64,000 nt of DNA from Maritimibacter harenae. Its GTDB lineage: Bacteria; Pseudomonadota; Alphaproteobacteria; Rhodobacterales; Rhodobacteraceae. The notes beneath the pieces were generated by a model. It did not search any database, was not told where the DNA came from, and saw nothing but the letters and a program-made list of their open reading frames with translations. Both the position numbers and the translations under genes were made by a program. Shown here one piece after another: positions 49,114-64,000 of this stretch (positions are counted from its first letter, which is position 1; every line of letters begins with the position of its first letter). The DNA is taken from the NCBI RefSeq assembly GCF_009882975.1, contig NZ_WTUX01000010.1, positions 418,367 to 482,366 of the forward strand, written 5' to 3'.

Positions 49114-49180
49114 AATCAATCTCAATCCCCCTTTCAAAACATAGGCATGTCTTTACCGCGCTGGGCATTCGTGCTCAATG

Positions 49181-49215
49181 TGCTACACATTTTGCTACAC
49201 ATTTTGCTACACACG
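49181..49215. repeat. Triple 12-bp direct repeat in front of the integrase gene
   Basis: TGCTACACATTT begins at 49181 and 49193, and TGCTACACACGA at 49205, an exact 12-bp period. It lies between the tRNA end and the integrase start. It may be arm-type integrase sites or an operator for int. The period of about one helical turn puts all copies on nearly one face. Confidence 0.75.
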
Positions 49216-49223
49216 AGGGGAAA

Positions 49224-50501
49224 ATGATCATCTTGAGGGGCAAGACCTGGTGGCTCCGACGCCGCGTGCCGAAGCAGTATCAGGGGGTCGCGGACAGCCG
49301 CGAGGTGTGGGTCAGCCTGAAGACCGATTCGGAGAAGGTCGCGCGCCGGAAGGCCGAGGCGGTCTGGACAGAGCGCGTCGCCGGATGGGAGGCCGCGATG
49401 GGCGGAGACTTCGAGAGAGCCGAGTTGCGCTGGTCGCGCGCCCGGGAGGCGGCGCGCTCGATGGGGCTGCAATTCATCCCGTCGCGCGAGGTCGCAGAGC
49501 TGCCGGTCGAGGACATCCTTGCGCGCGCCGAGATCGCGAAGAAGGGCAAGAAGGAAGCCGACGCCGCGCTGGGCGTTGCTCCTGCGCCGCGCCTGAAGCT
49601 CGCTGACGCGCTGGACATCTACTGGAAGGTCTCGGACGACAAGACGGTCACGAAGACGCCTGACCAGCTCCGCCGCTGGCGCAACCCGCGCATCAGGGCG
49701 ATGAAGCGCCTGGTCGATGTCGTGGGCGACAAGTATCTCGACGAGCTGTCTCGCGACGACATGCTCGACTACCGCGCGCACCTCGTCGGCCGAGTGCAGG
49801 CCGGGGAGATCAGCGCCTCGACAGCGAACAAGGAAATCACCCACGCCACGTCCGTGCTCAACCGGGTGAACGAGATGCAGCGCCTCGAGCTGAGCCTCCC
49901 GACGAAGGGCCTCAGCGTGAAGGCCGGCAAGAAGAAGACCCGCGCGCCTTTCTCGGTCGAGTGGATTAGGGACAAGCTGCTTGCCCCCGGCGCGCTGGAC
50001 GGGCTGAACCAGCAGGCCAGAGAGATTTTCCTGATGATGGTGAACACGGGCGCCAGGCCGTCAGAGATCGCCGGGATCAAGGTGGTTCACCTCGATCTGG
50101 ATGGGGACATCCCGTTGGTCTGGTTTGCCGCGGATGGCCGCGAGCTGAAGAACTACCATTCCGAGCGCAAGGTGCCTCTGGCCGGGGTGTCCCTGGACGC
50201 CGCCCGGTCTGCGCTCGCTCGGGCGAAGAAGACCGGCGGAGACCTCGTCTTCCCGACCTACTTCGGGAAGGACAAGATCAGCGACACGGTGAACAAGTAT
50301 CTGCGCGAGAACAGGCTGAAGGAGCACGACGGCACGACCTTCTATTCGCTCAGGCATGCCTTCGAGGACCGCATGATCCACGCAGGGGTGCTGGACCGCG
50401 TGCGGCGCGACATCTTCGGCCATGCGCTTCAGGAGGAGCGCTACGGATACGGTGGTGGTGATGAGGTGAGGTATGAGGCGGTGAAGCGGGTCGCACTCTA
50501 G
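49224..50501 (+). CDS. int: Tyrosine recombinase (phage integrase)
   Basis: The 425-residue integrase has an N-terminal arm-binding part that opens IILRGKTWWLRRRVPKQYQG, a core-binding domain (about 160-250) and the catalytic domain with Arg in NTGARPSEIAG near 274, the box II YSLRHAFEDR near 375, GH near 400 and the tyrosine in EERYGYG near 408. The first position of box II is Tyr instead of His, a variant seen in other phage integrases. The ATG at 49224 follows GAGGGG. It is next to the tRNA and reads away from it. Confidence 0.93.
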   Translation: MIILRGKTWWLRRRVPKQYQGVADSREVWVSLKTDSEKVARRKAEAVWTERVAGWEAAMGGDFERAELRWSRAREAARSMGLQFIPSREVAELPVEDILARAEIAKKGKKEADAALGVAPAPRLKLADALDIYWKVSDDKTVTKTPDQLRRWRNPRIRAMKRLVDVVGDKYLDELSRDDMLDYRAHLVGRVQAGEISASTANKEITHATSVLNRVNEMQRLELSLPTKGLSVKAGKKKTRAPFSVEWIRDKLLAPGALDGLNQQAREIFLMMVNTGARPSEIAGIKVVHLDLDGDIPLVWFAADGRELKNYHSERKVPLAGVSLDAARSALARAKKTGGDLVFPTYFGKDKISDTVNKYLRENRLKEHDGTTFYSLRHAFEDRMIHAGVLDRVRRDIFGHALQEERYGYGGGDEVRYEAVKRVAL

Positions 50502-50743: not shown

Positions 50744-51142
50744 CTAGGCGCTTAGTGCCAAATCTCGTAGCGGCTCCAATGGTCGGCCCTGTTGTCCTTG
50801 TGGACCATGTGTCGGTCCATTGGTGTGTGATTGGCTCGGCATGCTACGGGTTTTTCCTCCCAGGGGAGCGCCCAGGGTCGATATAGTGCCAACGTTGTTG
50901 CCGCCTTCTTGCCCATGGCATTTCTTGGATTGAGGCGTGGGCAGAAAAGGTGGGCGCCTTGACGACGCTCTAAACGGAGTCAGCTCCATATCCGTGGTCT
51001 CGCCTTCCTCGAATTGCAGGAACGCTGGCGCCGGGAATTCAGCGCCGAGAGTCGTCTTGCCGCGGCCGGGCATGCCGTAGAACAGGCAGCGGGGCGGGTT
51101 GGTTGCGCGGACCTTCTTCAGATTTCCGAGTGTGAGTGCCAT
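50744..51142 (-). pseudogene. Truncated RecA/Sak4-like ATP-binding protein
   Basis: The first 58 residues, opening MALTLGNLKKVRATNPPRC, with Walker A YGMPGRGKTTLG and FLQFEEG, look like the start of phage Sak4-type ATPases used in recombination. After MELTPF near 50970 the frame loses any likeness and runs into Pro/Ser/Gln-rich sequence until a stop at 50744. Full-length relatives have more than 200 residues. The start at 51142 lies 27 bp behind a TGCCA-N3-TGGCA operator. The break is probably a deletion joined to unrelated DNA. Confidence 0.65.
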
Positions 51143-51371
51143 GTGCGTCGTCTCTTGCATTCCAATAATGCCAATATGGCATAATAAATTGCGCGGTGTC
51201 AACGTGGCTATTCGAACCGGAATTTTATAGAAAAAATATTTTTTATGATGACAAAACCGGCAGTATTTGACGGCAAGTCGAAACAGCATATTATGGCATG
51301 AATAGCATAGACCCGATGGAGGTTGACAAATGAGCAGAAGTTGAGATTTATATGAAAGAAAGGACGAACCC
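51143..51371. promoter_or_regulatory. Divergent control region of the ATPase remnant and the repressor gene
   Basis: Leftward: TTGACA (near 51203), 15 bp, then the operator TGCCA-ATA-TGGCA (51169-51181) covering the -10. Rightward there are two promoters: TTGACG (51267-51272), 16 bp, TATTAT (51289-51294), with an operator half-site TGGCA (51294-51298) at its -10; and TTGACA (51323-51328), 17-18 bp, TTTATA near 51347. This is the classic layout of a lysogeny switch. Confidence 0.7.
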
Positions 51372-51980
51372 ATGAGCAACAACATCAGCATCATCCGCGA
51401 GCAGCGTGGTCTGTCGCAATCCGAACTGGCGCGTCGCATCGGCGTCACACCTTCCACCGTCAGCCGCATCGAGGGCGGGGCGCGCAAGCTTACGCAGGAT
51501 TACCTGATGCGCTTCGCGCGCGCCTTGAACTGCGCACCTGGCGAACTCGTCGATCAGCCGACCGGCAATCTCGACCGCGCCGCCCTAATCCCGGTCGTGG
51601 GCATGTGTGCCAGGAATGCGTGGCGGGTGCCGGACCTCGCCGAACCCACCGAAACAATCCCCGTGATCCCATCCCAAGACCTCGCGCAGCTCGATCACGC
51701 CGCCTATGAGGTCGTCGATGACCACGCCGCCGAGCTGGTGGGGGAGGGTGGTTACGTCATCACGGTGCCCGTAACAGGCATCCGCACAAAACCACTGCAC
51801 GGCGACTGGCTCGTGATCCGCTCGCGCGAGGGCAAAATGGAGCGCTACTCCGTCGCGAAAGCCCGCGTGGATCAGCGCGGTGCGTGGGTCACGCTCGATG
51901 GCGATGACGTCGAGGTGAACATGGACAACTGGAACGTCGGCATCGTCGTCGCCACATACCTCCCCTTGCGCCGGGGGTAA
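51372..51980 (+). CDS. CI-like repressor (XRE helix-turn-helix)
   Basis: The 202-residue protein has an XRE helix-turn-helix at about 6-60 (IIREQRGLSQSELARRIGVTPSTVSRIEGG) and a C-terminal half of about 120 residues in the place of a LexA/CI peptidase-S24 domain. The usual self-cleavage GDSM serine motif is not seen; the region reads VTVPVTGIRTKPLHGDW in outline. So the protein may be inactivated in some other way. It is the best candidate to bind the TGCCA-N3-TGGCA palindromes. AAAGGACG precedes the ATG. Confidence 0.85.
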   Translation: MSNNISIIREQRGLSQSELARRIGVTPSTVSRIEGGARKLTQDYLMRFARALNCAPGELVDQPTGNLDRAALIPVVGMCARNAWRVPDLAEPTETIPVIPSQDLAQLDHAAYEVVDDHAAELVGEGGYVITVPVTGIRTKPLHGDWLVIRSREGKMERYSVAKARVDQRGAWVTLDGDDVEVNMDNWNVGIVVATYLPLRRG

Positions 51981-52059
51981 CTCATGGAAATGCCAAGCCA
52001 GCAACGGCCCCGCGCAATGGTGTGCGGGGTCTTTTGATTCCAGCACGGTGTTGTGCTGA

Positions 52060-52127
52060 TGTCAGTAACGACTGACAATGCAAGTTGTTGAAAAGTAGGA
52101 ATATTATAGCCTGTCAGTGATTGTCAG
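52060..52127. repeat. TGTCAG repeats upstream of the primase-helicase gene
   Basis: TGTCAGTAACGACTGACA (52060-52077) is an inverted repeat with 7-bp arms and an AACG loop. It is followed by two direct TGTCAG copies at 52112 and 52122, exactly 10 bp apart. The same hexamer recurs in the large hairpin behind the gene. Such clusters resemble iterons bound by replication initiators. Confidence 0.65.
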
Positions 52128-52156
52128 AGTATTTCCTTGACCTTCTCGCTTCGCGT

Positions 52157-52169
52157 TGCCAAATTGGCA
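52157..52169. promoter_or_regulatory. Operator TGCCA-AAT-TGGCA of the primase-helicase gene
   Basis: A perfect palindrome lies 45 bp before the ATG. TTGACC lies 14 bp upstream of it (52137-52142), which puts the site over the -10. It is one of seven copies in the element. Confidence 0.75.
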
Positions 52170-52214
52170 AGCATTCCGAGCAAGACTCGGCGCAAGGCAC
52201 ATACAGGAGATAAC

Positions 52215-54965
52215 ATGAACACCTTTTCCACATACGCGAAGCGCTACCTTGAGGCCGGCTACAGCCCGATCCCGATCATGCCTGGCACCAAGCGTCCGGG
52301 CTTCCTGCGCGCTGGGCAGAATGGCGGCTTCCCGCGCTGGCAGCAATTCTGCGAAGCCCAGATGGGTGCGGACCAGGTGCATGACCTGGGCCTCGACCAT
52401 ATCGAAGCGGGCATCGGTCTCGCGCTAGGCTACAACAACGTGGTCGCGATCGACATCGACATCGAGGACGACATCATCCGCCCGGTCATCGACCAGATCG
52501 TGCCGGAGTCGCCGTTCGTGAAGCGCGGCGCCAAGGGCTTCACCGCGTTCTTCCGCACCGAGAATCCGATGCGTGCGCAGAAATTCAAGCTTCGGTTCGC
52601 GGAGGACGGCTCCCTTGAGCGCGAGAACGGCAAGCCCCAGCCCGTCGTGGAAATCCTCGCCCACGGCTCCCAGACGGTCATCCCGCCCACCATCCACCCG
52701 ACCGCGAACCAGCCCTACGTCTGGCTCGACGAGGACGAGGGCATCCTGTCCATGTGCCCCGCCCACATGCTTCCCGTCCTACCCGAAGACTTCCCGGCGC
52801 GCATGGCCGACGCTCTGCGCGTCTACGGTCACGATGAGTCTGCCCGGCGCTACAAGACCGGCGATTACGAGAAGTCGAGTGGCGAGTCTCGCGTTCTCGA
52901 GTTCATGCGCGAAATGAACGAAGAAGCGCTCGCCAGCCTGGACATGTGGGTGCCGCACCTCCACCGCGTCGAGATCGACCCGCAGCACCACGGTGAGGGA
53001 TACCGGATCATCGCGAGCTGGCGTGGCGGCGACGGCTACAACATCGGCATCCACCCGTCGGGCATTCAGGACTTCACCGGGAAGGACGGCAACAACGGCG
53101 GCATGACGGCGATCGACATCGTCGTGCTGATGAACGAGCTTCCGCCGGCCGATGCGTCGTCGTGGCTGTTCGACCACCTCAACCCCGGCCTGGATGAAGT
53201 GATTGACGACTTCGTGGAGCGCCTTGGCCGCGAGACCGAGGAGCGCCGGCAGCGTGAGCAGGAGGAGTGGGACAAGGTTCGCGCGCAGATGATGGAGGAC
53301 CACATCAGAGAGCAGCGTGACGAGGCCGAGCGCCGCAGGGTCGAGGCCGAGCTGGAAGCCCAGCGTCAAGCCGAGCTGCGGCGCCAAGAGGAGGAGGACC
53401 GCCGCGCGATCGAGCAGGCCGAGGCCAAGCGCGCCGCGCACGCCGAGGTCCTGGCCGCCGCCCAGCGCCAAGCCGAGCTGGAAGCGTTCGACGAGGTCGA
53501 GGCCGAGAACATCCAGCAGGAGGTCAAGTCGAGCCTCGATATGTTCATCGAGTCCATGCGTTCGGCAGAGACCAGCCTGACCATGCCGGACGTGATCGAC
53601 GCCTCGACGGGTATGTTCCGGGACATCGTGGAATACCTCAACAGCACGTCGGACCGCCCCTCGGACGTCGTGTCGTCTGTGGCCGCGCTGGGCGTCATCG
53701 CATCGCTGTTCGGCCGCCGTTACGGCTCCGTGCGCCGGGGCGGGCTGAACACCGGCCTGACCCATCCGAACCCCATGCTCATCGCGACCGCCGACTCCGG
53801 CTACGGCAAGACGTCCACGATGGAGACGGCGATGAAGCTCTACCGGGCAGGCGTCATGCAGGCGTTCGACGATCCAGACGTGCGCGACGCTCTCGTGGTC
53901 GAGGTCGAGAACGAGGAAACTGGCGACATGGAGCGCAAGGACGGCACCGAGCACATGATCGGTCAGGTTCTTGCCGTCATGACGGAGGTTGACTTCAAAT
54001 CCAAGGGCGGAATCTTGAACTGGCTTCGGGCGCGCCCTCTGACCACGGTGATCGTCGACGAATTCGCGGACGTCATGTCGGCCATCGTCACGAACAAGAG
54101 CGCCCCGTCGTCGTCGGACAACGCGCGCCTGTTCAAGCTCCTGACGGGCGCTGCGGACGACAAGATGACCGCCATCGCCTATGCGGACAAGAACCGGAAC
54201 ATGGCGGACGTCATCAAGCCTCACGTAGCCGTCTGCGCGCTATCTACGCCCAGCGCATTCAAGACGAGCGTGCCGGAGAAGCTGTTCACCGACGGCTTCA
54301 TGGGTCGTTTCGTGCTGCTTCAGGAAACCGAGGAAAAGCCCCTGCGTGACGAGATCATCGAGCGCACGGACCTGCGCCAGAAGATCATCGCTCAGATTGC
54401 GGCTGTCGTGAAGGACCGCCTGATGGACAAGGAAGACCTGCTCTGCGACGGGGGATATACGGGGTCCGAGACCGAGCCGCGCTTCGTGCACGTCTACCGG
54501 ACCCCGGAGGCCGAGACCGCCCTGAAGGCGTATCGCCTCAAATTCGACGAGCTGCGGGCGCAGGCAGAGAGGGCGGAGAACCCGATTGCGGCCTACTGGA
54601 ACCGCGCACTTGAGCACGTCCAGCGTCTCGCCCTCATGCACGCGCTGGGCAGGGATTGGCGTCGCCCGGTCGTCACGGAGGTCGATCTCGAGTTCGCACG
54701 CCGCATGGTTCTGATCTCCGCCGCCGAGGTCGATAAGTTGATGGAGGCAAGCGCACCGGAATCGCCTCAGAGGAAGCTCACGAACCGTGCCGTAAAGAAG
54801 ATCGCGAAAGAGGGTGGAGAGGTGGAATTCAGGACTCTCTATCGCTCCCTGTCGATCTCGAAGGCGGAGGCCATGCAGCTCATGATCGAGCTCCAACAAG
54901 AGGGTATCGCCACGCTTCACCAGCGCAACGGCAAGGAGTTTTGCACGCTCATCCAGAAACCGTAG
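52215..54965 (+). CDS. Replication protein: PrimPol domain, coiled coil and P-loop ATPase
   Basis: The 916-residue protein begins with a bifunctional primase-polymerase domain (YSPIPIMPGTKRPG, then the catalytic VAIDIDIED with Asp80, Asp82 and Asp85; about 1-200). It continues through a linker and a highly charged coiled coil (about 335-435, Glu/Arg/Gln/Ala) and ends in a P-loop ATPase with Walker A ADSGYGKTST near 527 and Walker B TVIVDEFADV near 610, like DUF3987 helicase-type proteins. It should prime and unwind the element's own DNA. AGGAGA sets the ATG at 52215. The terminator at 54998 ends the unit. Confidence 0.85.
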   Translation: MNTFSTYAKRYLEAGYSPIPIMPGTKRPGFLRAGQNGGFPRWQQFCEAQMGADQVHDLGLDHIEAGIGLALGYNNVVAIDIDIEDDIIRPVIDQIVPESPFVKRGAKGFTAFFRTENPMRAQKFKLRFAEDGSLERENGKPQPVVEILAHGSQTVIPPTIHPTANQPYVWLDEDEGILSMCPAHMLPVLPEDFPARMADALRVYGHDESARRYKTGDYEKSSGESRVLEFMREMNEEALASLDMWVPHLHRVEIDPQHHGEGYRIIASWRGGDGYNIGIHPSGIQDFTGKDGNNGGMTAIDIVVLMNELPPADASSWLFDHLNPGLDEVIDDFVERLGRETEERRQREQEEWDKVRAQMMEDHIREQRDEAERRRVEAELEAQRQAELRRQEEEDRRAIEQAEAKRAAHAEVLAAAQRQAELEAFDEVEAENIQQEVKSSLDMFIESMRSAETSLTMPDVIDASTGMFRDIVEYLNSTSDRPSDVVSSVAALGVIASLFGRRYGSVRRGGLNTGLTHPNPMLIATADSGYGKTSTMETAMKLYRAGVMQAFDDPDVRDALVVEVENEETGDMERKDGTEHMIGQVLAVMTEVDFKSKGGILNWLRARPLTTVIVDEFADVMSAIVTNKSAPSSSDNARLFKLLTGAADDKMTAIAYADKNRNMADVIKPHVAVCALSTPSAFKTSVPEKLFTDGFMGRFVLLQETEEKPLRDEIIERTDLRQKIIAQIAAVVKDRLMDKEDLLCDGGYTGSETEPRFVHVYRTPEAETALKAYRLKFDELRAQAERAENPIAAYWNRALEHVQRLALMHALGRDWRRPVVTEVDLEFARRMVLISAAEVDKLMEASAPESPQRKLTNRAVKKIAKEGGEVEFRTLYRSLSISKAEAMQLMIELQQEGIATLHQRNGKEFCTLIQKP

Positions 54966-54997
54966 ACGCCCAGCGCTGGGCACCCGAGAATCGACGA

Positions 54998-55024
54998 AGG
55001 CTCGCCTCTCCGGCGGGCCTTTTT
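54998..55024 (+). terminator. Rho-independent terminator after the primase-helicase gene
   Basis: The stem AGGCTCGCC/GGCGGGCCT (one G-T pair), with a TCTCC loop, is followed by TTTT, 33 bp behind the stop. Confidence 0.8.
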
Positions 55025-55675
55025 CGTGCCCAGGTGAGGGGGCCTGGCAGGCGGTCTGCGGGCGGTCATGACGGCCTTGCGGCGGTCCTGCGGCGGTCAA
55101 TTTCATGCTGCAATGCAGCGAGAATGCACCGTCAGTCGGCGCGCTTTAGGTCAGGGATGCTGTCTTATCTGAGGTTGATCCTAAACCTGAGTGAAATAGT
55201 ATGTAACAGTAAATAACATAGTGAAAGAGTCAGGAATTTACCTGAGCGAAATTGTCATGTATCAATCTATCACGCTGGCGTGAGTTCTCGTGATGAGATC
55301 GAGAGCGGTGCCTGATGGTCTTGGCCGACAGGCCGAGCCGTCGAATATCGGCTTTCTGACAGGTATTTGGTATTAAAAACAGGCAGTTAGAAAATCTGTC
55401 AGATTGTCAGTTGTCAGCAGTTCTAGTCAGCATACACACAAACACACAAACAAACACACACACACACACACACAATATATATAAATATTAAAGAATAAGA
55501 ATATAAGAATCGCGTTATTGTATGTGTGTGTGTGCGCGCGTATGTGCGCTGACTAGAACTGCTGACAACTGACAGGCTGACAGAGCTGACGTCTATTTCG
55601 CTGCAATGCAGAAACTCGATCCTCTTGCCGTTGGCACTGGGCTGTGCCATGCCGACACCGGAAGGAGGCACGACG
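55025..55675. other. Non-coding AT-rich region, candidate replication origin
   Basis: This 650-bp gap holds no gene. It contains TGCGGCGGTC repeats (55056-55098) and GCTGCAATGCAG at both ends (55107-55118 and 55600-55611). A 16-bp direct repeat of the form ACCTGAG(T/C)GAAAT(A/T)GT lies at 55185 and 55240. Seven TGTCAG hexamers (four on the other strand) and the large hairpin at 55395-55584 complete it. Base composition drops sharply to AT-rich between 55170 and 55530. This mix of iteron-like repeats, AT-rich DNA and a hairpin next to a replication gene suggests an origin. Confidence 0.55.
55395..55584. repeat. Giant inverted repeat with 37-bp arms
   Basis: The left arm 55395-55431 pairs with the right arm 55548-55584 at 35 of 37 positions plus one G-T pair; the inner 27 are perfect. 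Each arm has three TGTCAG units. The 116 bp between begin with a (CA)-rich run and end with a (TG)-rich run that can also pair, around an AT-only centre (about 55473-55510). The whole can form one cruciform or a long RNA hairpin. Confidence 0.9.
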
Positions 55676-56458
55676 ATGCACAACCCGGAGATCGCAGAAG
55701 CTCTGGAACGACTGGCGCAGCAGCGGGCCGAGCTGGATGCCGAGCTGGATGCCCAGCGCGAAGCCGAGGCGCGGGTCCGTGCCAAGTGGCAGGCTGAGGG
55801 GGAGGGCGTTGCGGCCAAGCAGCTTTTCGACGCGCAGACCCAGATCGACCCGAACAACGATCCCCGGAAGCTGACCTGGTGGCGCGGGTTCGAGCATCTG
55901 GTCCCGCCGAGCGACGATCCGGTCGAGCAGCTACGGGTGGCGTCCGAGTCGCTCGCCGCAGCGCTGGGCGGGTTCGACGTTGCCCTCCGGGGCGCAAATC
56001 CCGAGACCGAGCGGAACTGGCACCGGGCGGCGGACGGGTTTCGCAACGCCAGACCGGCGGCGCGGCCCCTGTGGGCGAAGCTGATGCTGGCCGGGCTTGT
56101 GGCGATCTGGGACGAATATCGGGGTCGACAAGCCGCTGGAAAGCCGCTCAGAGCCGCTGTGCTGCCCGCTGAGCGCCGTCATGGGGTCTCCGAGGGTCAG
56201 GACACCCGAGAACCCCAAGATGGCGCTGAGAGGCGCTCTCAGCCGCTCTACAGCCCAATCGCCTCGATCGAGGAGGCCGAGGCCGACTTCGATGCCAGGC
56301 AGGCGGAGGTCCGGGCGGCGCTGGAAGGGATCGGGATGCGATACGAGCCGCCTACGCCGGAGCGCCGCCGCGAGCTGATCGGGATGGCCTTCGCGCTAGA
56401 CCGGGCGGCGCGGGACGCGGCGGGTCTCGATGAGGATTTTCTCGAAGACGAAAATTAG
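55676..56458 (+). CDS. Phage protein of unknown function
   Basis: The 260-residue protein starts with a coiled-coil-like helix (ALERLAQQRAELDAELDAQREAEARV), followed by a middle part with LTWWRGFEHLVPPSDDPVEQ and RPLWAKLMLAGLVAIWDEY, and ends in an acidic helix (DRAARDAAGLDEDFLEDEN). GGAAGGAGG sets the ATG at 55676. It follows the hairpin region and precedes the nuclease gene. I do not recognise a family. Confidence 0.75.
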   Translation: MHNPEIAEALERLAQQRAELDAELDAQREAEARVRAKWQAEGEGVAAKQLFDAQTQIDPNNDPRKLTWWRGFEHLVPPSDDPVEQLRVASESLAAALGGFDVALRGANPETERNWHRAADGFRNARPAARPLWAKLMLAGLVAIWDEYRGRQAAGKPLRAAVLPAERRHGVSEGQDTREPQDGAERRSQPLYSPIASIEEAEADFDARQAEVRAALEGIGMRYEPPTPERRRELIGMAFALDRAARDAAGLDEDFLEDEN

Positions 56459-56480
56459 CGCTTGCCGCCGCCGGATGCTT

Positions 56481-56493
56481 TGCCAGAATGGCA
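56481..56493. promoter_or_regulatory. Operator TGCCA-GAA-TGGCA of the VRR-NUC unit
   Basis: A perfect palindrome ends 2 bp before the ATG of the nuclease gene. TTGCCG at 56463 and CAGAAT (inside the palindrome) can serve as -35 and -10. The message would then start at or near the ATG. Confidence 0.7.
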
Positions 56494-56495
56494 AT

Positions 56496-56949
56496 ATGAG
56501 CAAGAAAAGCCTATACCTCGAATCCACCCACCAAGCCTGCGTGATCCGTGGGCTTCGTCGCTTGGAGCGCTACGGTTACGACCTGACCTGCGCTGGCGAC
56601 ATGAACGCCGGGAAGCGCGGGAGCCGCGCGGCGGCGGAGGCCGCGATCACTGGCCTGACGCCGGGAGAGCCGGACATACGCATCTACCTCGCCGGGGGGG
56701 CGCCTGATCTCCGTCGAGATGAAAACCGAAACCGGACGTCTCTCGAAGGAGCAGAAGGACCGGCACGCGCGGCTCAAGAAGCTTGGGTTTGAGGTCTACA
56801 CGGTTCAGCACGAGCACCCGCTCGATACTGCGGAGGAAGTCGGCGAGATCATCGCCCCGATGCTCGGCGAGAAGCCGGCTATCTTTCGTGGGCACATGGC
56901 GATCGCGACGCAGGAAGTTTTGGAAGCAATCAAGGGGCAGAAACGCTGA
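56496..56949 (+). pseudogene. VRR-NUC nuclease, reading frame broken in a G7 run
   Basis: The first frame (from ATG 56496) gives about 67 residues, ending in GEPDIRIYLAGG. The catalytic continuation RLISVEMKTETGRLSKEQ and LGFEVYTVQHEH lies in another frame to 56949. Removing one G from the run 56694-56700 joins them into a protein of about 150 residues. That protein has the VRR-NUC signature: Asp in GEPD, then ExK in VEMKT. Such nucleases cut branched DNA in phages. The break separates the catalytic residues. It may be a mutation, a sequencing error or slippage. Confidence 0.85.
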
Positions 56950-57146
56950 TGGCGTATGACGAAAAGGTGTCGTTCTTGGCGACGCACAACGCTGATCCGC
57001 CAGCGGTCGAGACGGTCGAGGATTTGCTGGTAAAGACCGCGCTGGTTGAACGGCACAGGATCATCACCTATCTCCGAACGAAGAAGCAGGGCGAGGCGGC
57101 GAAGCTCGTCGAGAACCTGCCCACTCCCGAGGTCAACATCGAGTAG
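56949..57146 (+). CDS. Small phage protein of unknown function
   Basis: The 65-residue protein is mostly helical by appearance (VETVEDLLVKTALVERHRIITYLRTKKQGEAAKLVENL). The ATG shares a base with the nuclease stop (TGATG), so it is co-translated with it. No known family. Confidence 0.65.
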   Translation: MAYDEKVSFLATHNADPPAVETVEDLLVKTALVERHRIITYLRTKKQGEAAKLVENLPTPEVNIE

Positions 57147-57151
57147 AACCA

Positions 57152-57322
57152 TTGGCTTGCTCATCCTGCGCGAAGCGCCGTGAAATGCTGAAGAAGGCCG
57201 CCGCCCAGGCTAAGGCCGGGCACACCCGCCAGGCGGCGCGCACCTCGATTGCCGTTGTGCGCTCCACCGCCCGGTCTGCCCGCGCCGCCGCGTTGTCCGC
57301 TGGCCGGGTTCGCCGTCGGTAA
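57152..57322 (+). CDS. Small basic CxxC protein
   Basis: The 56-residue frame from TTG 57152 starts ACSSCAKRREMLKKAA and ends in an Arg/Ala-rich helix. The CxxC near the N-terminus followed by a basic helix is a pattern of small phage proteins. The stop overlaps the next ATG (TAATG), which supports translation. The rare TTG start lowers certainty. Confidence 0.5.
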   Translation: MACSSCAKRREMLKKAAAQAKAGHTRQAARTSIAVVRSTARSARAAALSAGRVRRR

Positions 57323-57909
57323 TGGCGCCGCGCGCCACATTCTCGGTCAGTCACAATCTGCACGAGCTCCCTGCGGCGTTTCAGGACATGTCCAAGCATT
57401 CGCGGGATCGCGTTGTGCGGATGGGCATCAACGACACGCTTCGGAGGAACGAAAATAAGGTCGTTGACCGGATACAGGAGCGCGGCCAATGGTCCGATCC
57501 TGGGCACGTCAAGAAGCGCGTGAGTTCAATACTGGCCGGCACAAAGCTGGTCGGTAAAATCCGAGCTGAACAGAACCATTACAGCCTCGCGACGCGGTTC
57601 AGCGGCGTCTCGGACGGACATGCTGGCGGGAAGTTTCGATCTGCGAAGCCGTGGGGGCAGACTCGAAACTACAAGGGCTTCCTGGTTCGCGGAAAATACA
57701 ACGATGCGTTGCTGCCCGCCGTTCGCACGGGTCGCGGCCGGAACGCCTTCAAGGTGATCTACGGCGCGAGCGTGGCGCGCGAGCTAGAGCGCGAAATGGA
57801 AGAACAGAACGGCCACCTGAAAACGACCTTGCAGCGCCAGATCGAGGCGAACATGGTGAAGCACGTTGGACTCGAGCAGCAGCGTATAAAGTCGCTCCAC
57901 GGTCTCTAG
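57322..57909 (+). CDS. Possible minor-tail (gpZ-like) phage protein
   Basis: The 195-residue protein has the order expected of minor tail protein Z: a basic N-terminal helix (VRMGINDTLRRNENKVVDRIQER), a YSLATRFSG stretch, GKYNDALLPAVRTGR, then FKVIYGASVARELEREME and a last helix LQRQIEANMVKH. This is a likeness of layout read by eye. If correct it is the only structural gene in view. The stop overlaps the pentapeptide gene's stop in CTAG. Confidence 0.55.
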   Translation: MAPRATFSVSHNLHELPAAFQDMSKHSRDRVVRMGINDTLRRNENKVVDRIQERGQWSDPGHVKKRVSSILAGTKLVGKIRAEQNHYSLATRFSGVSDGHAGGKFRSAKPWGQTRNYKGFLVRGKYNDALLPAVRTGRGRNAFKVIYGASVARELEREMEEQNGHLKTTLQRQIEANMVKHVGLEQQRIKSLHGL

Positions 57910-58472
57910 GCGGCCAAGCGCCGCGCGAGGCTCTTGGACTCGTTGATGATGTTGAGCGTCCGCGCCTGCCGGAGCACGAGGTCGGCGCCGAAGTCGATCC
58001 CGCGCACGTTGACCCGGACAATCCTCGCCTTCCGCATACGAGACGATCCGATTGACGCCCGCCCGAAGTCGGAGTCGCGAATGTCGGCCTTGAAAAGATC
58101 GCACTCGCTAAGAGACACGCCGCGCGCATCCACGTCGCGCATCTGGATGCGGTTCATGTCGCTATTGAAGAACCAGACCTTTCGGATCGACTGGTCTTGA
58201 AGCAGCGCGCCACGCATCGAACATTCCGTGAAGATTGCGCCCGCCAGCTTGCACCGCGAGAAGGTCGCGCGATCCATGTTGCATCCACGGAAGTTGACTG
58301 CGCGCAGGTCCATGCCGGTGAAGTCCACGCCGCTCAGGTCGAGGTTCTCGAATTCCGCATGGTAGCCGCCCAGGGTTCGGATGAGATACGGTTTCTTCTC
58401 GTGGTGCTTCGACTTTTCGATGGTCGTCGTTGCGAGGTATCTGCGGAATTCTTCGGTCGTCATCTTCTTCAT
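57906..58472 (-). CDS. Pentapeptide-repeat protein
   Basis: The 188-residue protein has about 20 loosely kept repeats with Leu or Phe at the centre (FENLDLSGVDFTGMDLRAVN, FRGCNMDRATFSRCKLAGA, IFTECSMRGALL). These fold into a right-handed square helix. Such proteins (Qnr, MfpA) can mimic DNA and protect gyrase, but many have other roles. AAAGGACACGAC precedes the ATG at 58472. Its operator lies 39 bp upstream. Confidence 0.85.
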   Translation of the reverse strand: MKKMTTEEFRRYLATTTIEKSKHHEKKPYLIRTLGGYHAEFENLDLSGVDFTGMDLRAVNFRGCNMDRATFSRCKLAGAIFTECSMRGALLQDQSIRKVWFFNSDMNRIQMRDVDARGVSLSECDLFKADIRDSDFGRASIGSSRMRKARIVRVNVRGIDFGADLVLRQARTLNIINESKSLARRLAA

Positions 58473-58511
58473 GTCGTGTCCTTTCCTGTTGTGGGTGTTG
58501 CTGCCCGATGA

Positions 58512-58524
58512 TGCCATCATGGCA
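58512..58524. promoter_or_regulatory. Operator TGCCA-TCA-TGGCA of the pentapeptide gene
   Basis: A perfect palindrome. On the minus strand TTGACC lies 15 bp upstream, with CGAATCA directly before the site, exactly as at 62437. Confidence 0.75.
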
Positions 58525-58601
58525 TGATTCGCTCCAAGCGGTCAATCGGCCTCGATCGTTGCCCGTTTCCGGGTCAATTCTCGTTGTGACCCAGTGCGGG
58601 G

Positions 58602-58823
58602 TCAGGCGGCGTCTTGGCGCAGGATGATTGCGATCTGACGGCCGGTCTCGGTCAGGCCGTAAGGCGTTGTCGTGTCGGTCGCGTCGATCAGCGGATCGAG
58701 CGTCACGATTCCCTTGCTGAAAAGCCGCATCCCGATCTCGTTCCAGTCGCGGAGGGTGAGCCGCCCGGCCAGCGCATCGCAGTCGCGTTGGATCAGGTCG
58801 TTGATGGTGTCGCCGATGGTCAT
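58602..58823 (-). CDS. Small protein of unknown function
   Basis: The 73-residue protein has no signal peptide (TIGDTINDLIQRDCDALAGR, then YGLTETGRQIAIIL). The last part resembles a winged-helix wing but is too short to name. The start overlaps the upstream gene's stop (ATGA). Confidence 0.65.
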   Translation of the reverse strand: MTIGDTINDLIQRDCDALAGRLTLRDWNEIGMRLFSKGIVTLDPLIDATDTTTPYGLTETGRQIAIILRQDAA

Positions 58824-59425
58824 ATCGTTACCTCGCATTCGCTGACGGTGATGGAGTCGGTCCAGCCGTTATCGAGCAGCTCGTCGTAAGCTTCTTCGAG
58901 GTCGCCGGGCATCGGGTCGTCGGTGTGGTCCATCACGCGCGCCCAGGCGTTCACGATGTATTCGCGCTTGATCTCCTCCGCCTCCTCGGCGCTCCCCACG
59001 GCGAACCCATCGGGCATCCCGCAATCGTCGTTGGTTGTTACGACCCAGACGGCGCGCCGGCGCGGGCGCTCGTGCCGCTGGATGAATTCGTCAAGATCGA
59101 AGCAGTCGACGGTGTGCCACTGGTATTCGTAGTGCTCCATGAGGCGTTGGACGTTCAGGTTCGAGTCCGCCGGGATTTCACCGGCCTCGATCCGGGCGTT
59201 GCAGTCGTCGCAGTAGCCGGTATCGCTCTCGCCCATGTCGTCGCCGCAGTGGTCGCACTCGTTGGATTCTTCGAGCAGGCATGCGGCCATTTCCAACCCG
59301 CACAGGCGCTCGGCCTCGTCGTGGTCCTTCGCCTCGACGATGGTGCCGAAGTCGCCCCCCTCGGGGTAGTCGTGCCAGTTGCGGGTGACGTAGGAGCGGC
59401 GGGTGGTTTCGGTGGTGTCGGTCAT
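58820..59425 (-). CDS. Acidic protein with a zinc ribbon
   Basis: The 201-residue, strongly acidic protein has CDHC and CDDC pairs (about residues 57-75) that can bind one zinc, and a long Asp/Glu-rich second half (EEAEEIKREYIVNAWARVMD). GGAGGACAACGAC precedes the ATG. It is second in the unit headed by 59441-59707. No family recognised. Confidence 0.72.
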   Translation of the reverse strand: MTDTTETTRRSYVTRNWHDYPEGGDFGTIVEAKDHDEAERLCGLEMAACLLEESNECDHCGDDMGESDTGYCDDCNARIEAGEIPADSNLNVQRLMEHYEYQWHTVDCFDLDEFIQRHERPRRRAVWVVTTNDDCGMPDGFAVGSAEEAEEIKREYIVNAWARVMDHTDDPMPGDLEEAYDELLDNGWTDSITVSECEVTI

Positions 59426-59440
59426 GTCGTTGTCCTCCGT

Positions 59441-59707
59441 TCAGCGGCCGTAAGGCGTTGCATAGATCAGGTATTCGCGGCCGCCGATCTCGGCGGTGCG
59501 CAGGGCGGCGTCCTCGATAAACTGGATGTCGCTGACGATCTGGTCGTATTCGTCGTTGACGGCGTGAAGTAGCAGGTCCTCGTCACGCGGCCCCTCGACC
59601 TGGATCGCGTCGAGGTGCATCGGCATCCCTTCAACCTCGATCTCGGCGAGCAGCCGGGTCTTGGGGTCCTCGCAACCAACCTCTTTCCATTCGGGCTTGA
59701 TGTTCAT
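59441..59707 (-). CDS. Small acidic protein of unknown function
   Basis: The 88-residue protein (opening MNIKPEWKEVGCEDPKTR, ending GREYLIYATPYGR) has an acidic centre. The ATG at 59707 is chosen because the shared leader GCACGAAAGGACAGCGAC lies right before it. A frame extends 19 codons further to an ATG inside the operator, but this would lie over the promoter. Confidence 0.7.
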   Translation of the reverse strand: MNIKPEWKEVGCEDPKTRLLAEIEVEGMPMHLDAIQVEGPRDEDLLLHAVNDEYDQIVSDIQFIEDAALRTAEIGGREYLIYATPYGR

Positions 59708-59758
59708 GTCGCTGTCCTTTCGTGCTGCGGGCTCTGCGCCATTGGTGTGATGTTGTGT

Positions 59759-59771
59759 TGCCATATTGGCA
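59759..59771. promoter_or_regulatory. Operator TGCCA-TAT-TGGCA
   Basis: A perfect palindrome 51 bp before the ATG at 59707, at the head of a three-gene minus-strand unit. TTGACC is only 6 bp from it, so spacing differs from the other copies. Confidence 0.72.
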
Positions 59772-59796
59772 TGACTCGGTCAATGCCAAATCCGGC

Positions 59797-60123
59797 TTAG
59801 GCAAGCGCCTTTTCGCCATGCCATTCACGCAGGGCGATCCCGGCTTGGATACCGGCCATGCCCTCAACGCGGCGCGGGCGCCAGGCGCGCGGATCGACGC
59901 CGTGCGCCTGGTGGTCGGCCCAGGATCGAGGAACGTCGCCGTCCAGATAGCCCTTGAGCATCGCGATAGCTTCCTCCGGGGGCACCTTCTCGGGGTAGCG
60001 GGGCGAAACCCACCGCTTGACCGTGCGCGGCCCCGTGTTGAGCAGGTAGGCGCACGCGAAGTCGCTAAGGTCCGCCTTGGCCTTCAGGAAGCGGAAAAGG
60101 CCCTTCAGATCAGTCTCACCCAT
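59797..60123 (-). CDS. Small putative DNA-binding protein
   Basis: The 108-residue protein has a likely helix-turn-helix (LSDFACAYLLNTGPRTVKRW, about 18-37), then PEEAIAMLKGYLDG, as in small XRE-like phage regulators. The start overlaps the preceding gene by 8 bp. It is the last gene of the unit that begins at 62395. Confidence 0.6.
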   Translation of the reverse strand: MGETDLKGLFRFLKAKADLSDFACAYLLNTGPRTVKRWVSPRYPEKVPPEEAIAMLKGYLDGDVPRSWADHQAHGVDPRAWRPRRVEGMAGIQAGIALREWHGEKALA

Positions 60124-60514
60124 GCGTCGCGCCGTCCCGGTCCAGATATTCCATGTGCTCTTGCAGGGCGTCAGCAATGCGCGTCAGACGTCCCGCCGCG
60201 CCGGAGTCGATCTCATGCCCTCGGATGAGGCCGATCAGCGCCTCCGCGTCCTCCGACGAAAGATACTGGATATTCAGCCACGGGTCATTGAGATACTTTT
60301 CGATGGGCGTGCCTTCGCCCGGCTCGGTGAAGCGGTCCAGAATGCCCACCTGACTCGGCTCGTCGAAGTCCATGTCGTCGGCGCACGTGTTGGCGATCTC
60401 GTCGCGCACCCGGTCATAGGTCAGCTTCTCGGTTGCCGCCTCGGGCGTCTCGGCCTCGACGTCGATCGTGAAATAGCAGCGAATGTTTGCGGCGATGGTG
60501 AATTTCGTTTTCAT
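60116..60514 (-). CDS. Acidic protein of unknown function
   Basis: The 132-residue protein begins with a beta-rich stretch (KFTIAANIRCYFTIDVEAET) and continues in acidic helices (SSEDAEALIGLIRGHEID). GAGGAGG lies before the ATG. It is co-transcribed with its neighbours by spacing (3 bp from the upstream gene). Confidence 0.68.
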   Translation of the reverse strand: MKTKFTIAANIRCYFTIDVEAETPEAATEKLTYDRVRDEIANTCADDMDFDEPSQVGILDRFTEPGEGTPIEKYLNDPWLNIQYLSSEDAEALIGLIRGHEIDSGAAGRLTRIADALQEHMEYLDRDGATHG

Positions 60515-60517
60515 GTG

Positions 60518-60820
60518 TCAGTCCTCCTCGTTGATTTCTGCGTCGAAGTGCATGAGCGCCGTTGCGATAAGCTGCGTGTGATCGAGGCCCTCCGCGTGCG
60601 CGACGTGGAAAAGCTGCGCCAGCGTGTCGCTGATTGCGGTCTGGGGGCCGTCTGCATCGTGCGCCGGGTCAACCCCGGTCATGGCGTGCATGAGGTCCAG
60701 GATCACCCGCCCCTCGGCCACGCGGTCGGCGTTGGTGCGTTCGCCGGAATTCAGGGCGTGGTCGATGCCCTCGCGCCCGACGCGCTGCGCGATTGCGACT
60801 CGTTTTGCTTTGCTGGTCAT
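60518..60820 (-). CDS. Small helical protein of unknown function
   Basis: The 100-residue protein is helical in appearance (VAEGRVILDLMHAMTG, LAQLFHVAHAEGLDHTQLIA) with several His residues. AGGGAGGAC precedes the ATG. No family recognised. Confidence 0.65.
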   Translation of the reverse strand: MTSKAKRVAIAQRVGREGIDHALNSGERTNADRVAEGRVILDLMHAMTGVDPAHDADGPQTAISDTLAQLFHVAHAEGLDHTQLIATALMHFDAEINEED

Positions 60821-60834
60821 GTCGTTGTCCTCCC

Positions 60835-61320
60835 TTAGCCGCGCGGCCCGACGTTGCGCGACGCGAGCGTTGCGCGATCAACGGCGATCACCTGAAAGCC
60901 CTTCCACTTCCCGGCCTCGTATTCGTCGGACAGGGCTTGCCAGATGGCGTCCGGGTCGCGGTCGAAATGCGCGCGATGCAGGCCGAAGGAGTCGGCGATC
61001 TCATCCAGCGCCTCGCCCCACGTCTGGTGAAGCGAAAACGACTCCTCCCAATCGTAATTGAACGTGCAGATGAAGAATTCGTTGGCGTCATGCGGCTCGA
61101 TCTTCGCGGCGATCTCGTTGAGGGTCGCAGCCACGGCGCGCAGCGTCGCGGCGTCGCTCGGCATTGCGACCCAGCCCTTCGACTCCTCGCCGGTGTTCGC
61201 GAGGCGCGACGCGAAGTAGGTCGTGCTCTCTTTTTCCTCGATCACGAGCGCGTCGGTGCGGAACGGGACGTTGCCGTTGCGGGATTTGCGGGTTTCGGTG
61301 AATTCGATGGTGCGGTTCAT
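60835..61320 (-). CDS. Protein of unknown function
   Basis: The 161-residue protein has a beta-rich first half (TIEFTETRKSRNGNVPFRTD) and a helical second half (WGEALDEIADSFGLHRAHFD). The ATG at 61320 follows CGAAAGGATCATCAC, the shared leader type of this block. No family recognised. Confidence 0.68.
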   Translation of the reverse strand: MNRTIEFTETRKSRNGNVPFRTDALVIEEKESTTYFASRLANTGEESKGWVAMPSDAATLRAVAATLNEIAAKIEPHDANEFFICTFNYDWEESFSLHQTWGEALDEIADSFGLHRAHFDRDPDAIWQALSDEYEAGKWKGFQVIAVDRATLASRNVGPRG

Positions 61321-61345
61321 GTGATGATCCTTTCGTTTCTGGAAT

Positions 61346-61546
61346 TCAGGGGAGGGTGATGGGGCCTGCGGCGACGAATGATTGCCCGTTGCCATTGCCG
61401 CGCGCGGCGGCGTCCCAATAGCACCACGTCGAGTCCTCCGCCTGGCATGGCGTCACGGCGGCGATCAGCATGGCGGCGATGAGGGTGGCGGCGGCGAGGG
61501 ACACGCCCAGGCCGACAACCAGGAGGGCGTTGGGGTAGCGGTTCAT
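61346..61546 (-). CDS. Small membrane or secreted protein
   Basis: The 66-residue protein has one long hydrophobic helix (ALLVVGLGVSLAAATLIAAM, near residues 7-32) and two Cys in the outside part (TPCQAED, TWCYWD). It may be a signal-anchored lysis-type or exclusion protein. The start overlaps the upstream stop by 4 bp. Confidence 0.62.
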   Translation of the reverse strand: MNRYPNALLVVGLGVSLAAATLIAAMLIAAVTPCQAEDSTWCYWDAAARGNGNGQSFVAAGPITLP

Positions 61547-62395
61547 TGGCTCACCCCCTCGAACATGTCCGGGTCCCTCGCAACGATCCTCGCGAAGACT
61601 TCCGGGAATTCCGCCTTGATCGTTGCGGCCTCGTCCGGGTCGTCGGTCGCGACGTTGTAGAGCTTTTCGACCAGCGCGGCGTTGATCGAGGCTTGCAGCT
61701 TGTCGAAGTCCATGCCCATTTCGAGCGCGTGAAAGCCCGTCTCGCCTTCGATCACGTCATACATGAGGCTATCCTCGTCAGCGTTGCACAGCTCAAGGCA
61801 GGCGATGAGTAGCGTGCCAAGCTCGTTGTGGTCCCAGTCGGCCAGCGGCTTCGCCAGCCACGCGCCCAGATCGGCGGAATAGAAGGGCGCGAACCCGGAG
61901 CACGGCGTAAACCGATCGGCGATGACGCGGGCGAGCGTCGCGTGGTCATCCGCCTTCGACATGGCGAACAGGCGCTTGCAGAACGCCGCGCTGGCATTCA
62001 CGAAAAGCCGGTCGGTCTCGAAATTGTATTCGCGGGGGCTTTCCATCGCGGCCCACGTGAAGCCGCAAGAGTCGGCGCGGTAGCGTTCCCGGCGCTGCCC
62101 TCCGCCGGTAAAGTATACCGTGCGCCACGCGGGGCGCGTCTCGCCAAGCGCCTCGCCAGCCCATGCGTCGAAGCTCTCAAGGTAGACGTTGGCGACGTGA
62201 AGGTAGGCGGCGGAGTAGTCCATCGCGTCGAAGATTTTCTCGGCCATTTCAACGTCGTTGAGCATGAGCGCGGCGGGCAGGTCGTCGTTGACGTCCTCGG
62301 CGCGTGCTTCCGACTCGTATTCTTCCGCGCTATCGACGATGTCGGAAAGCCACGTGTGATAGGAGGCCGGGGAATGGAATGTTGATCTCGGGCAT
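61543..62395 (-). CDS. Protein of unknown function, apparent frameshift near its start
   Basis: The long frame gives about 275 residues (SYHTWLSDIVDSAEEYESE, then LFVNASAAFCKRLFAMSKAD and VYLESFDAWAGEALG). The ATG that fits the shared leader (CACGAAAGGAACACACA, ATG at 62395) starts MPEINIPFP in another frame. Removing one G from the run 62369-62372 (plus strand) joins the two as MPEINIPFPASYHTW. An in-frame ATG at 62442 lies inside the operator and would need an unusual message. So either the gene is frameshifted or it starts upstream. Confidence 0.6.
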
Positions 62396-62436
62396 TGTGT
62401 GTTCCTTTCGTGTTGCGGGCACTTGCCCTTGTATAA

Positions 62437-62449
62437 TGCCACTATGGCA
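62437..62449. promoter_or_regulatory. Operator TGCCA-CTA-TGGCA
   Basis: A perfect palindrome 41 bp before the ATG at 62395, head of a six-gene minus-strand unit. TTGACC lies 15 bp upstream on the minus strand, and CATAGT inside the site fits a -10. Confidence 0.75.
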
Positions 62450-62466
62450 TGATTCGTGCCGTGCGG

Positions 62467-62943
62467 TCAATACATGTCGATTTCAGCGCCAAGGTTTGCG
62501 GCCAGCGCCTCGGCGTATAGCTCGGCGGCTTTGAGCGTCTGAAAATCGCCCTCGAATTCATCCCACGAGTCGAAGGTCTCGCCGTGCACGTTGGGGGTCT
62601 CCCAATCACGCCGGACCCAGACATTCCAGCCGTGGCAGTCGTCGGAGTCGTAATCCTCGTGCTCGATTGCCAGGCCGCTCGGATCGGGGTTTCCATCGTC
62701 GTCCAGGCGGATGAACCCGTGAAGCATGACGGTCAGCGTGACGCCGGCTCCTGGGCCTCGATTTGCCGCGAAAATGCCCGTTGCCATGTTGTATTCGAGC
62801 ACGGCGTCGCCGTCTTCGCCCTCGAATACTTCAACGTATGGCTCGCCGTTTTTGACTTGCTCGAGTCCGATCTGGGCGGCCTCCTCGGGGCTTTCCGCAA
62901 GCGTTGACGTGCTGAAAACGATGTAGAATTTGCGTTGCGTCAT
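62467..62943 (-). CDS. Acidic protein of unknown function
   Basis: The 158-residue protein is very acidic (EVFEGEDGDAVLEY, IEHEDYDSDDCHGWNVW, WDEFEGDF). It starts with a beta strand and helix (KFYIVFSTSTLAESPEEAAQ) and ends in a helix. CACGAAAGGAACAACGACC lies before the ATG. The charge could suit a DNA-mimic protein, but that is a guess. Confidence 0.7.
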   Translation of the reverse strand: MTQRKFYIVFSTSTLAESPEEAAQIGLEQVKNGEPYVEVFEGEDGDAVLEYNMATGIFAANRGPGAGVTLTVMLHGFIRLDDDGNPDPSGLAIEHEDYDSDDCHGWNVWVRRDWETPNVHGETFDSWDEFEGDFQTLKAAELYAEALAANLGAEIDMY

Positions 62944-62969
62944 GGTCGTTGTTCCTTTCGTGCGTTGGG

Positions 62970-63923
62970 TTAGGCGGCGGCTTTGGCGCGCCATTCGTCG
63001 TCGTGCTTCGCGGCGTTGAGCGCTTCCTCGATTGCGTGGGCGTGGGCGCTCTCGAACGGGAATGAATGCTGCGTGCCCTCGGGATAGAAGCCCCAGCAAG
63101 AGTCGACGTCGTGGCAGTATTCCAGCGCGTCAAGCTCATCCGGGGAAAGGTCGGCAAGCGTCGCGGCGTCGTTGGCCTCAAGCGCAAGCTCGATCTCCGC
63201 CGGGTCGATCCGCTCGACCACATAGCCGACCACGCCGCCCCAGCACCACGCGCCGAACGTGTCGGTCTCGCGTTCCAGATGGGCGGCAATGTCCGCGTCA
63301 CTGTCGCACACGTGGGCTTTCAGATAGCGGGCGGTTGCGTCGCGGTCGCGCTTGCCCTCGAAGCCCCAAGCGCGCACGGCGTCCGGGTGAGCCACGAAAA
63401 GCAGGTCAACGTGATCCCCTTGGCAGTATCCGCGCGACTGCGTTGCGAGCGCGGGAACGCCAGCCAGCATCCAAAGCGCCGCGCACGTTTCCATTTCGCC
63501 CCGGTTCATCGAAGCCGCGCGGAAGTCGCAAATCTCGGTCAGGTGGTCACGGCGCGCCTCGGCGCGGGTCATGCCGTAGTCTTCCGCGATCTCGCGAATG
63601 TGCGCCTCGAACCCGTCGAAGTCGTCCCAGATTTTGACGCCAAGGAAGCCCATGACCGCGCCGCCCAGAATGTCCACGATGGCGCGGCGGTTGCGCGTTA
63701 TGAAGTCGTCGGACATGTAGGCGATCGGTTCCAGAATGTCGCACCCCTGCGACCAATCCGCGTTGCCGCCCCGGCCGGACGTCCAGACGCACGGGGTCAT
63801 TCCGTCCCATGCTTCCCACGGGGACTCGCGGTCGTTGTCGTGGTGGAATTGAATCCGGTAGGCGTCCCCGGTTTTGGTTCCGATGAAAAGCCGGGTTTCG
63901 CTGTCAATCACGGTGCTGAACAT
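62970..63923 (-). CDS. Protein of unknown function
   Basis: The 317-residue protein opens with MFSTVIDSETRLFIGTKTGD and has RRAIVDILGGAVMGFLGVKI near the middle and an acidic C-terminal half. About a dozen Cys, His and Trp residues are spread through it. The ATG at 63923 follows AAAGGAACACGAC. It heads a unit with 62467-62943. No family recognised. Confidence 0.7.
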   Translation of the reverse strand: MFSTVIDSETRLFIGTKTGDAYRIQFHHDNDRESPWEAWDGMTPCVWTSGRGGNADWSQGCDILEPIAYMSDDFITRNRRAIVDILGGAVMGFLGVKIWDDFDGFEAHIREIAEDYGMTRAEARRDHLTEICDFRAASMNRGEMETCAALWMLAGVPALATQSRGYCQGDHVDLLFVAHPDAVRAWGFEGKRDRDATARYLKAHVCDSDADIAAHLERETDTFGAWCWGGVVGYVVERIDPAEIELALEANDAATLADLSPDELDALEYCHDVDSCWGFYPEGTQHSFPFESAHAHAIEEALNAAKHDDEWRAKAAA

Positions 63924-63973
63924 GTCGTGTTCCTTTAGGGTTGCGGGCGCTGCGCCCTCAGTGTGTTTCGGTG

Positions 63974-63986
63974 TTGCCATATTGGC
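63974..63986. promoter_or_regulatory. Operator TGCCA-TAT-TGGCA at the window edge
   Basis: A perfect palindrome 50 bp before the ATG at 63923, with CGAATCA directly before it on the minus strand, as in two other copies. The -35 would be beyond or at the window edge. Confidence 0.75.
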
Positions 63987-64000
63987 ATGATTCGGCCAAT

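Follow-up and report, generated by a model that had tools for sequence, protein, structure and literature searches.

The palindrome TGCCA-N3-TGGCA, repeated along a prophage of Maritimibacter harenae, is probably the operator of that prophage's immunity repressor, an XRE protein encoded at 51372-51980, and the sites together would form a dispersed-operator regulon. The prophage lies in a 64,000-nucleotide stretch of contig NZ_WTUX01000010.1 (assembly GCF_009882975.1), hereafter the window, whose numbering is used throughout. In the mechanism that we propose from sequence comparison, a repressor dimer would bind the symmetric site and would keep RNA polymerase off the promoters of the Sak4, primase, VRR-NUC and accessory genes together. 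We term these targets 'early' on the strength of their gene content.

Seven perfect copies of the palindrome occur in the window, all within the element between 51169 and 63987. Across 100 dinucleotide shuffles of the window the mean was 0.03 copies and the maximum one, with none of the 100 reaching seven. An earlier note on this DNA had listed seven copies; all of them exist, but the last starts at 63975 rather than at 63974. Allowing one mismatch added no copy in the window beyond the seven. Beyond the window the contig continues for about 6 kb to its end, and here we find an eighth perfect copy at the window-equivalent position 65467, as well as single-mismatch palindromes at 65014 and 67153. 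An unbiased scan of all 5-bp palindromes with spacers of 0-8 bp placed TGCCA with a 3-bp spacer at the top within the element (8 copies), against a null of 100 random sequences in which the commonest palindrome of any kind reached at most six copies (mean 3.0). The earlier note had also proposed scanning the host genome for further copies. The draft (70 contigs, 99.5% complete) holds nine perfect palindromes, eight of which belong to this element; the sole copy elsewhere, at C59:42580, lies inside an open frame that we read as encoding a LytTR-type regulator.

The sites stand in a consistent register with promoter elements. Read in the direction of the gene that follows, the palindrome has its central CANNNT at the -10 position, and A2 and T6, the most constant bases of a -10 box, are both contained in it. 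When the best -35 box was compared with TTGACA at spacers of 15-19 bp, the eight perfect sites gave, in map order, 6, 5, 4, 5, 5, 5, 3 and 3 matches; five of the eight therefore have at least five matches, compared with 1.8% of random element positions. For the single-mismatch sites at 65014 and 67153 the best -35 had only 1 and 3 matches. Several earlier observations agree with the sequence, namely that the site overlaps the -10, that a TTGACA or TTGACC box precedes it by 14-15 bp at 51169, 52157, 58512 and 62437, that copies lie 2-51 bp upstream of a start codon, and that a half-site at 51294 falls at the -10 of the CI-like repressor gene. Indeed, TTGACG of the repressor promoter is followed after 16 bp by TATTAT and then by GGCA, which sets the half-site in the operator register. 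Because CANNNT occupies the -10 position, bound repressor would exclude RNA polymerase. The further statement that the palindrome leads almost every transcription unit is fair over the stretch of the element covered, but has exceptions: no palindrome was seen upstream of the integrase, the repressor start has only the half-site, and the start of the 55676 open reading frame (ORF) has only a site with two mismatches at 55645.

The same operator and repressor recur together in a second genome. We scanned IMG/VR for palindromes preceded at 16-18 bp by TTGAC, which returned at least 120 contigs, 80 of which were examined. Among the matches listed was a syntenic relative, IMGVR_UViG_3300001200_000014 (G394, 58.7 kb), which surfaced through this promoter-shaped DNA pattern alone and not through protein queries. 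Its homologues follow the gene order of the window, running from Sak4 through the repressor, primase, 55676 ORF, VRR-NUC, 57322 ORF, pentapeptide-repeat protein and 59797 protein to the 62970 protein (identities in Table 1). G394 carries 12 perfect palindromes, compared with none for the reversed control. Allowing one mismatch raises the count to 25, where 2.7 are expected. As in the window element, TGCCA with a 3-bp spacer is its top palindrome (12, null maximum 3). A start preceded by a Shine-Dalgarno sequence lies within 80 bp of 9 of the 12 perfect sites, compared with 26-33% of random positions. All five syntenic gene starts that we compared, those of Sak4, primase, the 55676 ORF, VRR-NUC and the 62970 ORF, have a site in both genomes, with the G394 primase start taken by our own reading as ATG 12899. 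The half-site on the repressor side in the window is matched in G394 by a full site, and the interval between repressor and Sak4 there holds three sites with at most one mismatch, as in a phage immunity region. The half-site after the repressor's own -10, complete in G394, would permit weaker autoregulation.

Comparison with other phages suggests that it is the repressor, and not the target genes, that the sites accompany. Two phages, one of Rhizobium and one of Sinorhizobium, have Sak4, primase and VRR-NUC in common with the element and carry 1 and 0 sites, respectively (32.0 kb out of 59.5 kb and 30.9 kb out of 64.2 kb searched). A third, from Erythrobacter, has the 62970 protein and, more weakly, the primase in common with it, and its whole deposited record contains 0 sites. 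In the searched stretches of these three phages, neither the repressor nor the 59797 protein had a homologue at E 0.01. The count is likewise 0 in six loci of the same class whose repressors are more distant. The earlier proposal of a single-operator regulon, confined to the element, overlapping the -10 and most likely run by the 51372 protein, is supported by the co-occurrence of operator and repressor in G394 and by the counts of 1, 0 and 0 sites in the three phages whose searched stretches showed no repressor homologue. Since the same word and the same repressor gene are found in a distantly related phage, the word is very probably the on/off switch of the virus. Within the repressor, the helix-turn-helix (HTH) core (residues 15-42) is identical between window and G394 at 21 of 28 positions, and helix 3 (26-36) at 8 of 11, compared with 20 of 61 for residues 60-120; hence, the DNA-reading part is the best kept. 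In a single-sequence structure model of the protein (mean predicted local distance difference test, pLDDT, 44), the HTH alone is usable.

The second candidate binder is the 107-residue protein encoded at 59797-60120, which could be an Aca-like negative regulator of accessory genes with the palindrome as its operator, leaving the immunity repressor without a part in it. We regard this as unlikely, although its gene ends a palindrome-led run, the protein is conserved in G394 at 34-39% identity, and no relative other than G394 was found to have either protein. The genes next to it have no assigned function, which bears on the anti-CRISPR partner expected of an Aca-type regulator. It matched no family or structure, its single-sequence model being helical with a pLDDT of 68 and without a PDB match, and its putative DNA-reading helix is less conserved than that of the repressor. 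Furthermore, the trio of sites in the immunity-like region of G394 disfavors it.

Several observations weigh against assigning the palindrome to the repressor. G394 is the only relative found and keeps the rival 59797 protein too; with a single relative that carries both candidates, the choice of binder rests on one genome pair. In three of the five pairs, the site of one genome departs from the perfect palindrome by one or two mismatches. No counterpart of the 58512 site within one mismatch was found near the G394 pentapeptide gene, and the genes behind 59759 and 62437 have no G394 homologue at E 0.1. The -35 boxes of 63975 and 65467 are weak (3 matches each). In the window, a Shine-Dalgarno-preceded start lies within 80 bp of 5 of 8 sites, compared with 31% of random positions, which is a modest excess. 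Finally, the host's relatives often carry the base palindrome: 354 of 394 family genomes have it, at 1 to 28 copies each.

In several of these family genomes the count lies well above that of the reversed control (for example, 28 vs 4 and 25 vs 4), an imperfect yardstick with another order of bases. This abundance is what might favor a host regulator as the binder, or sites that mark replication, packaging or a promoter type of their own. We nevertheless consider this group of explanations improbable: the host's own chromosome has one copy outside the element, in an open frame, the sites keep a fixed register to sigma-70-like boxes, and the three family genomes whose places are listed fully or nearly so show no comparable cluster. 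Places are given for three of the eight richest genomes (G200, G187 and G327), together with the first place for G304, and the check for clusters is thus partial; in G200, three copies fall within 2.1 kb, inside two open frames. The excess in family genomes, scattered where listed, may reflect composition or another regulator that uses the same word. The extended form TGCCAN3TGGCAACAC occurs in 20 of 295 family genomes, including that of the host (three copies there, two in one other and a single copy in each remaining genome); the reversed control gave a similar number, and the stretches of about 3 kb examined in the other genomes contained no second palindrome. The form AATCATGCCAN3TGGCA occurs in 39 viral contigs, with two palindromes in two of the stretches examined and one in each other.

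Denser arrays are found in other viral records, with 45 copies in 39.9 kb of G395, 51 in 34.0 kb of G397, 18 in G396 and 16 each in G398 and G399 (loci L246-L250, L194 and L195). These records are A+T-richer, and their arrays consist mostly of CTGCCA-N3-TGGCAG, often paired 29 bp apart. Near consensus-like promoters (40, in five stretches) the copies occupy positions -7 to -68 on the upstream side of the -35, with none at 0 to +60. The searched stretches contained neither a homologue of a window protein nor an XRE-like string. Most simply, these arrays are independent of the element's operator. Their dense, promoter-upstream but differently laid out copies could also speak for a palindrome that acts in RNA, as a small terminator or stability hairpin; the word is self-complementary and could pair. 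Such a role is very improbable for the element, where, as in G394, the palindrome lies at or before the expected transcription start. In a further 9-kb viral contig (G401; L163/L245), palindromes occur at 885, 1778 and 2184, two of them directly after TTGAC and between -35 and -10; this is perhaps a third, separate operator use.

Wider protein searches returned mainly HTH-level similarity. With the repressor as query, 129 of 295 family genomes (own included) matched at E 1e-3, among the matches listed mostly over the HTH region, with the best other genome at 5e-9; genome contigs gave one Streptococcus HTH locus, phages and plasmids gave matches at the HTH level, and viral contigs gave none. 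Neither the primase, 62970 and 59797 proteins as queries nor two-row alignments (window and G394) of the repressor and of the 59797 protein found a further relative among viral contigs. A repressor model matched 10 of 288 other genomes of the class at E 1e-12, within model positions 1-92, and a model of the 59797 protein matched none of 294 other family genomes. The stretches examined in G060, G122 and G140, which have distant 62970 matches, contained no perfect site.

The C-terminal region of the repressor bears on how the proposed switch would be released. Like the self-cleaving S24 repressors such as lambda CI and LexA, the protein has an N-terminal HTH and a C-terminal region that can be aligned with S24-matching phage repressors; it appears to differ from them at the GDSM serine position, which seems to read DDHA both here and in G394. 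Of the 26 Pfam families that matched the repressor at E 1, the best 25 did not include Peptidase_S24. Three phage repressors align with it at 28-29% identity, two of them matching S24 above the cut-off and one weakly. GDSM of Microcystis phage Mae-JY35 aligns with DDHA of the window repressor and with GNHA in Mae-JY30, and the G394 repressor reads DDHAAE at the same position. K163 of the window repressor lies 45 residues after the histidine of DDHA, a spacing that is nearly the one between Ser and Lys in lambda CI. Thus, the S24 nucleophile serine is likely absent, which is not certain because the alignments are at 28-29% identity, GDSM of the Pseudomonas phage PS-1 protein falls at another place in the alignment, and the G394 repressor has another serine some 15 residues on (QLSAARR). 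With this serine seemingly missing, RecA-aided self-cleavage is doubtful, and release through an antirepressor would be likelier. The SOS induction suggested by the earlier note is accordingly put in doubt by the S24 search and by DDHA in place of GDSM. The alphaproteobacterial LexA motif is GTTC-N7-GTTC, which occurs once in 70 kb, at 64680, away from the repressor.

It is tempting to speculate, tentatively and with more doubt than belief, that DDHAAE marks a lineage of lysogeny repressors that run P1-like dispersed regulons through a symmetric operator which is also the -10 box, with non-SOS induction, and that unrelated phages have independently adopted the 10-base word as paired upstream elements. 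With operator and -10 box being one, promoter strength and repressor affinity would be written in the same 13 bases.

The element is a prophage that looks decayed. From its left end, at a tRNA gene, G+C drops from about 0.69 to 0.59-0.64; when the genome was searched for the 121 bases that surround the tRNA 3' end, no second copy turned up. Within the minus-strand run of small genes, the pentapeptide-repeat protein alone exceeds a Pfam cut-off. Directly past the window lies a cell-wall hydrolase (PF07486), and further along are frames that by our own reading are transposase-like, up to the contig end. Signs of decay are an ATG at 62395 whose reading frame differs from that of the long 61543 ORF (region 62355-62442), a hydrolase frame (L010:3-746) that crosses the putative operator at 63975 into the next gene, and the condition of the VRR-NUC-like and Sak4-like genes (Table 1). 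Ahead of the 55676 ORF, a CA/TG-rich low-complexity tract with inverted TGTCAG/CTGACA repeats at 55420-55570 is possibly a phage replication origin.

Table 1. Genes of the prophage and putative operator sites (window coordinates; counterparts and identities refer to G394)
Feature	Position	Strand	Remarks
tRNA-Ser, left end of element	49024-49113	+	
Tyrosine integrase	49086-50501	+	PF00589; 55% identical
Sak4-like ATPase, recognizable N-terminally only	50744-51142	-	phrog_124 over residues 7-48; 49% over 57 aa
XRE repressor, proposed binder	51372-51980	+	PF01381, E 7e-16; 42% over 196 aa, E 1e-47
Prim-Pol primase	52215-54965	+	PF09250; 33%
ORF of no assigned function	55676-56458	+	33% over 92 aa
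VRR-NUC-like nuclease, split over two reading frames	56496-56949	+	phrog_824 and phrog_93, one per frame; 67% over 67 aa
Tail-completion-like ORF	57322-57909	+	phrog_27; 31%
Pentapeptide-repeat protein, ATG 58472	57906-58472	-	PF00805; 29% over 68 aa
107-aa HTH-looking protein, rival binder	59797-60120	-	Conserved; 39% over 72 aa
Early-type gene of no assigned function	62970-63923	-	42%; 26% in Erythrobacter phages
Putative operator, Sak4-like gene promoter	51169-51181	-	TTGACA, 18-bp spacer, CATATT; counterpart 13822
Half-site TGGCA at -10 (TATTAT) of repressor promoter	51294-51298	+	Register as full sites; full site 13780
Putative operator, primase promoter	52157-52169	+	TTGACC, 17, CAAATT; ATG 52215 45 bp on; counterpart 12925, one mismatch
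Degenerate site, two mismatches, before 55676 ORF	55645-55657	+	Counterpart 9719, perfect
Putative operator, VRR-NUC-like gene	56481-56493	+	TTGCCG, 16, CAGAAT; ATG 2 bp on; counterpart 9081
Putative operator, pentapeptide-repeat gene	58512-58524	-	TTGACC, 18, CATGAT; counterpart not found
Putative operator, 59441-59707 gene and genes after it	59759-59771	-	TTGGCA, 15, CAATAT
Putative operator, run of small genes 62395-59797	62437-62449	-	TTGACC, 18, CATAGT
Putative operator, 62970-63923 gene	63975-63987	-	Weak -35; counterpart 1276, one mismatch

The minus-strand leaders that follow the putative operators, at 59708-59758, 62396-62436 and 63924-63974 and at L010:1784-1833 and 3448-3519, have in common a hairpin of the type GGGC...GCCC together with a ribosome site of the type GAAAGGA. 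Promoter, operator and leader look as if copied as one cassette, for which folding gives weak support (z-scores of -0.1 to -1.8 over six leaders). We make no claim for the leader hairpin GGGCGCAGCGCCC, present in several minus-strand leaders, since with one mismatch allowed it occurs 11 times in the window against 8.7 by chance.

Taken together, these findings provide a concrete and testable repressor-operator pair for a prophage lineage in which one other member has been found. The palindrome may serve as a sequence tag for early and accessory units, and so as a way to list uncharacterized early genes, some of them perhaps anti-defence. The element also offers a case in which lysogeny control may bypass the usual serine self-cleavage.

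The earlier note knew of no description of such a system, and a literature search for the motif string TGCCANNNTGGCA agrees in having found none; the kind of system, however, is known. C1 of phage P1 represses lytic genes via 22 dispersed operators (PMC8546580). The likeness lies in one phage repressor acting on many near-identical operators throughout the genome with lytic targets, whereas the P1 operators are described there as 17-bp and asymmetric and that of the element is a 13-bp palindrome around the -10. The operators and stoperators of Cluster A mycobacteriophages are similar in offering many copies of one site to one repressor, but are asymmetric 13-mers bound by a monomer that has two DNA-binding domains; they are oriented with transcription and also placed within units (PMC9283540). 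The element's site is palindromic, without such orientation, and lies at promoters. Cluster O mycobacteriophages have a 7-N3-7 palindrome, TGTTCGGNNNCCGAACA, with 34 copies in Corndog, and share with the element a variable 3-bp center and a high copy number; about a third of their copies lie within genes, and these phages are reported to have no known lysogens or repressor and the palindrome no known function (PMC4351075). Of the features that mark regulons of the P1 C1 kind, the element and G394 show many near-identical sites far above chance, their location at promoters, and a phage-encoded HTH repressor that travels with them in these two genomes. Judged by its anatomy, and given the predicted binding of the repressor, this would be a regulon that works like that of P1 C1.

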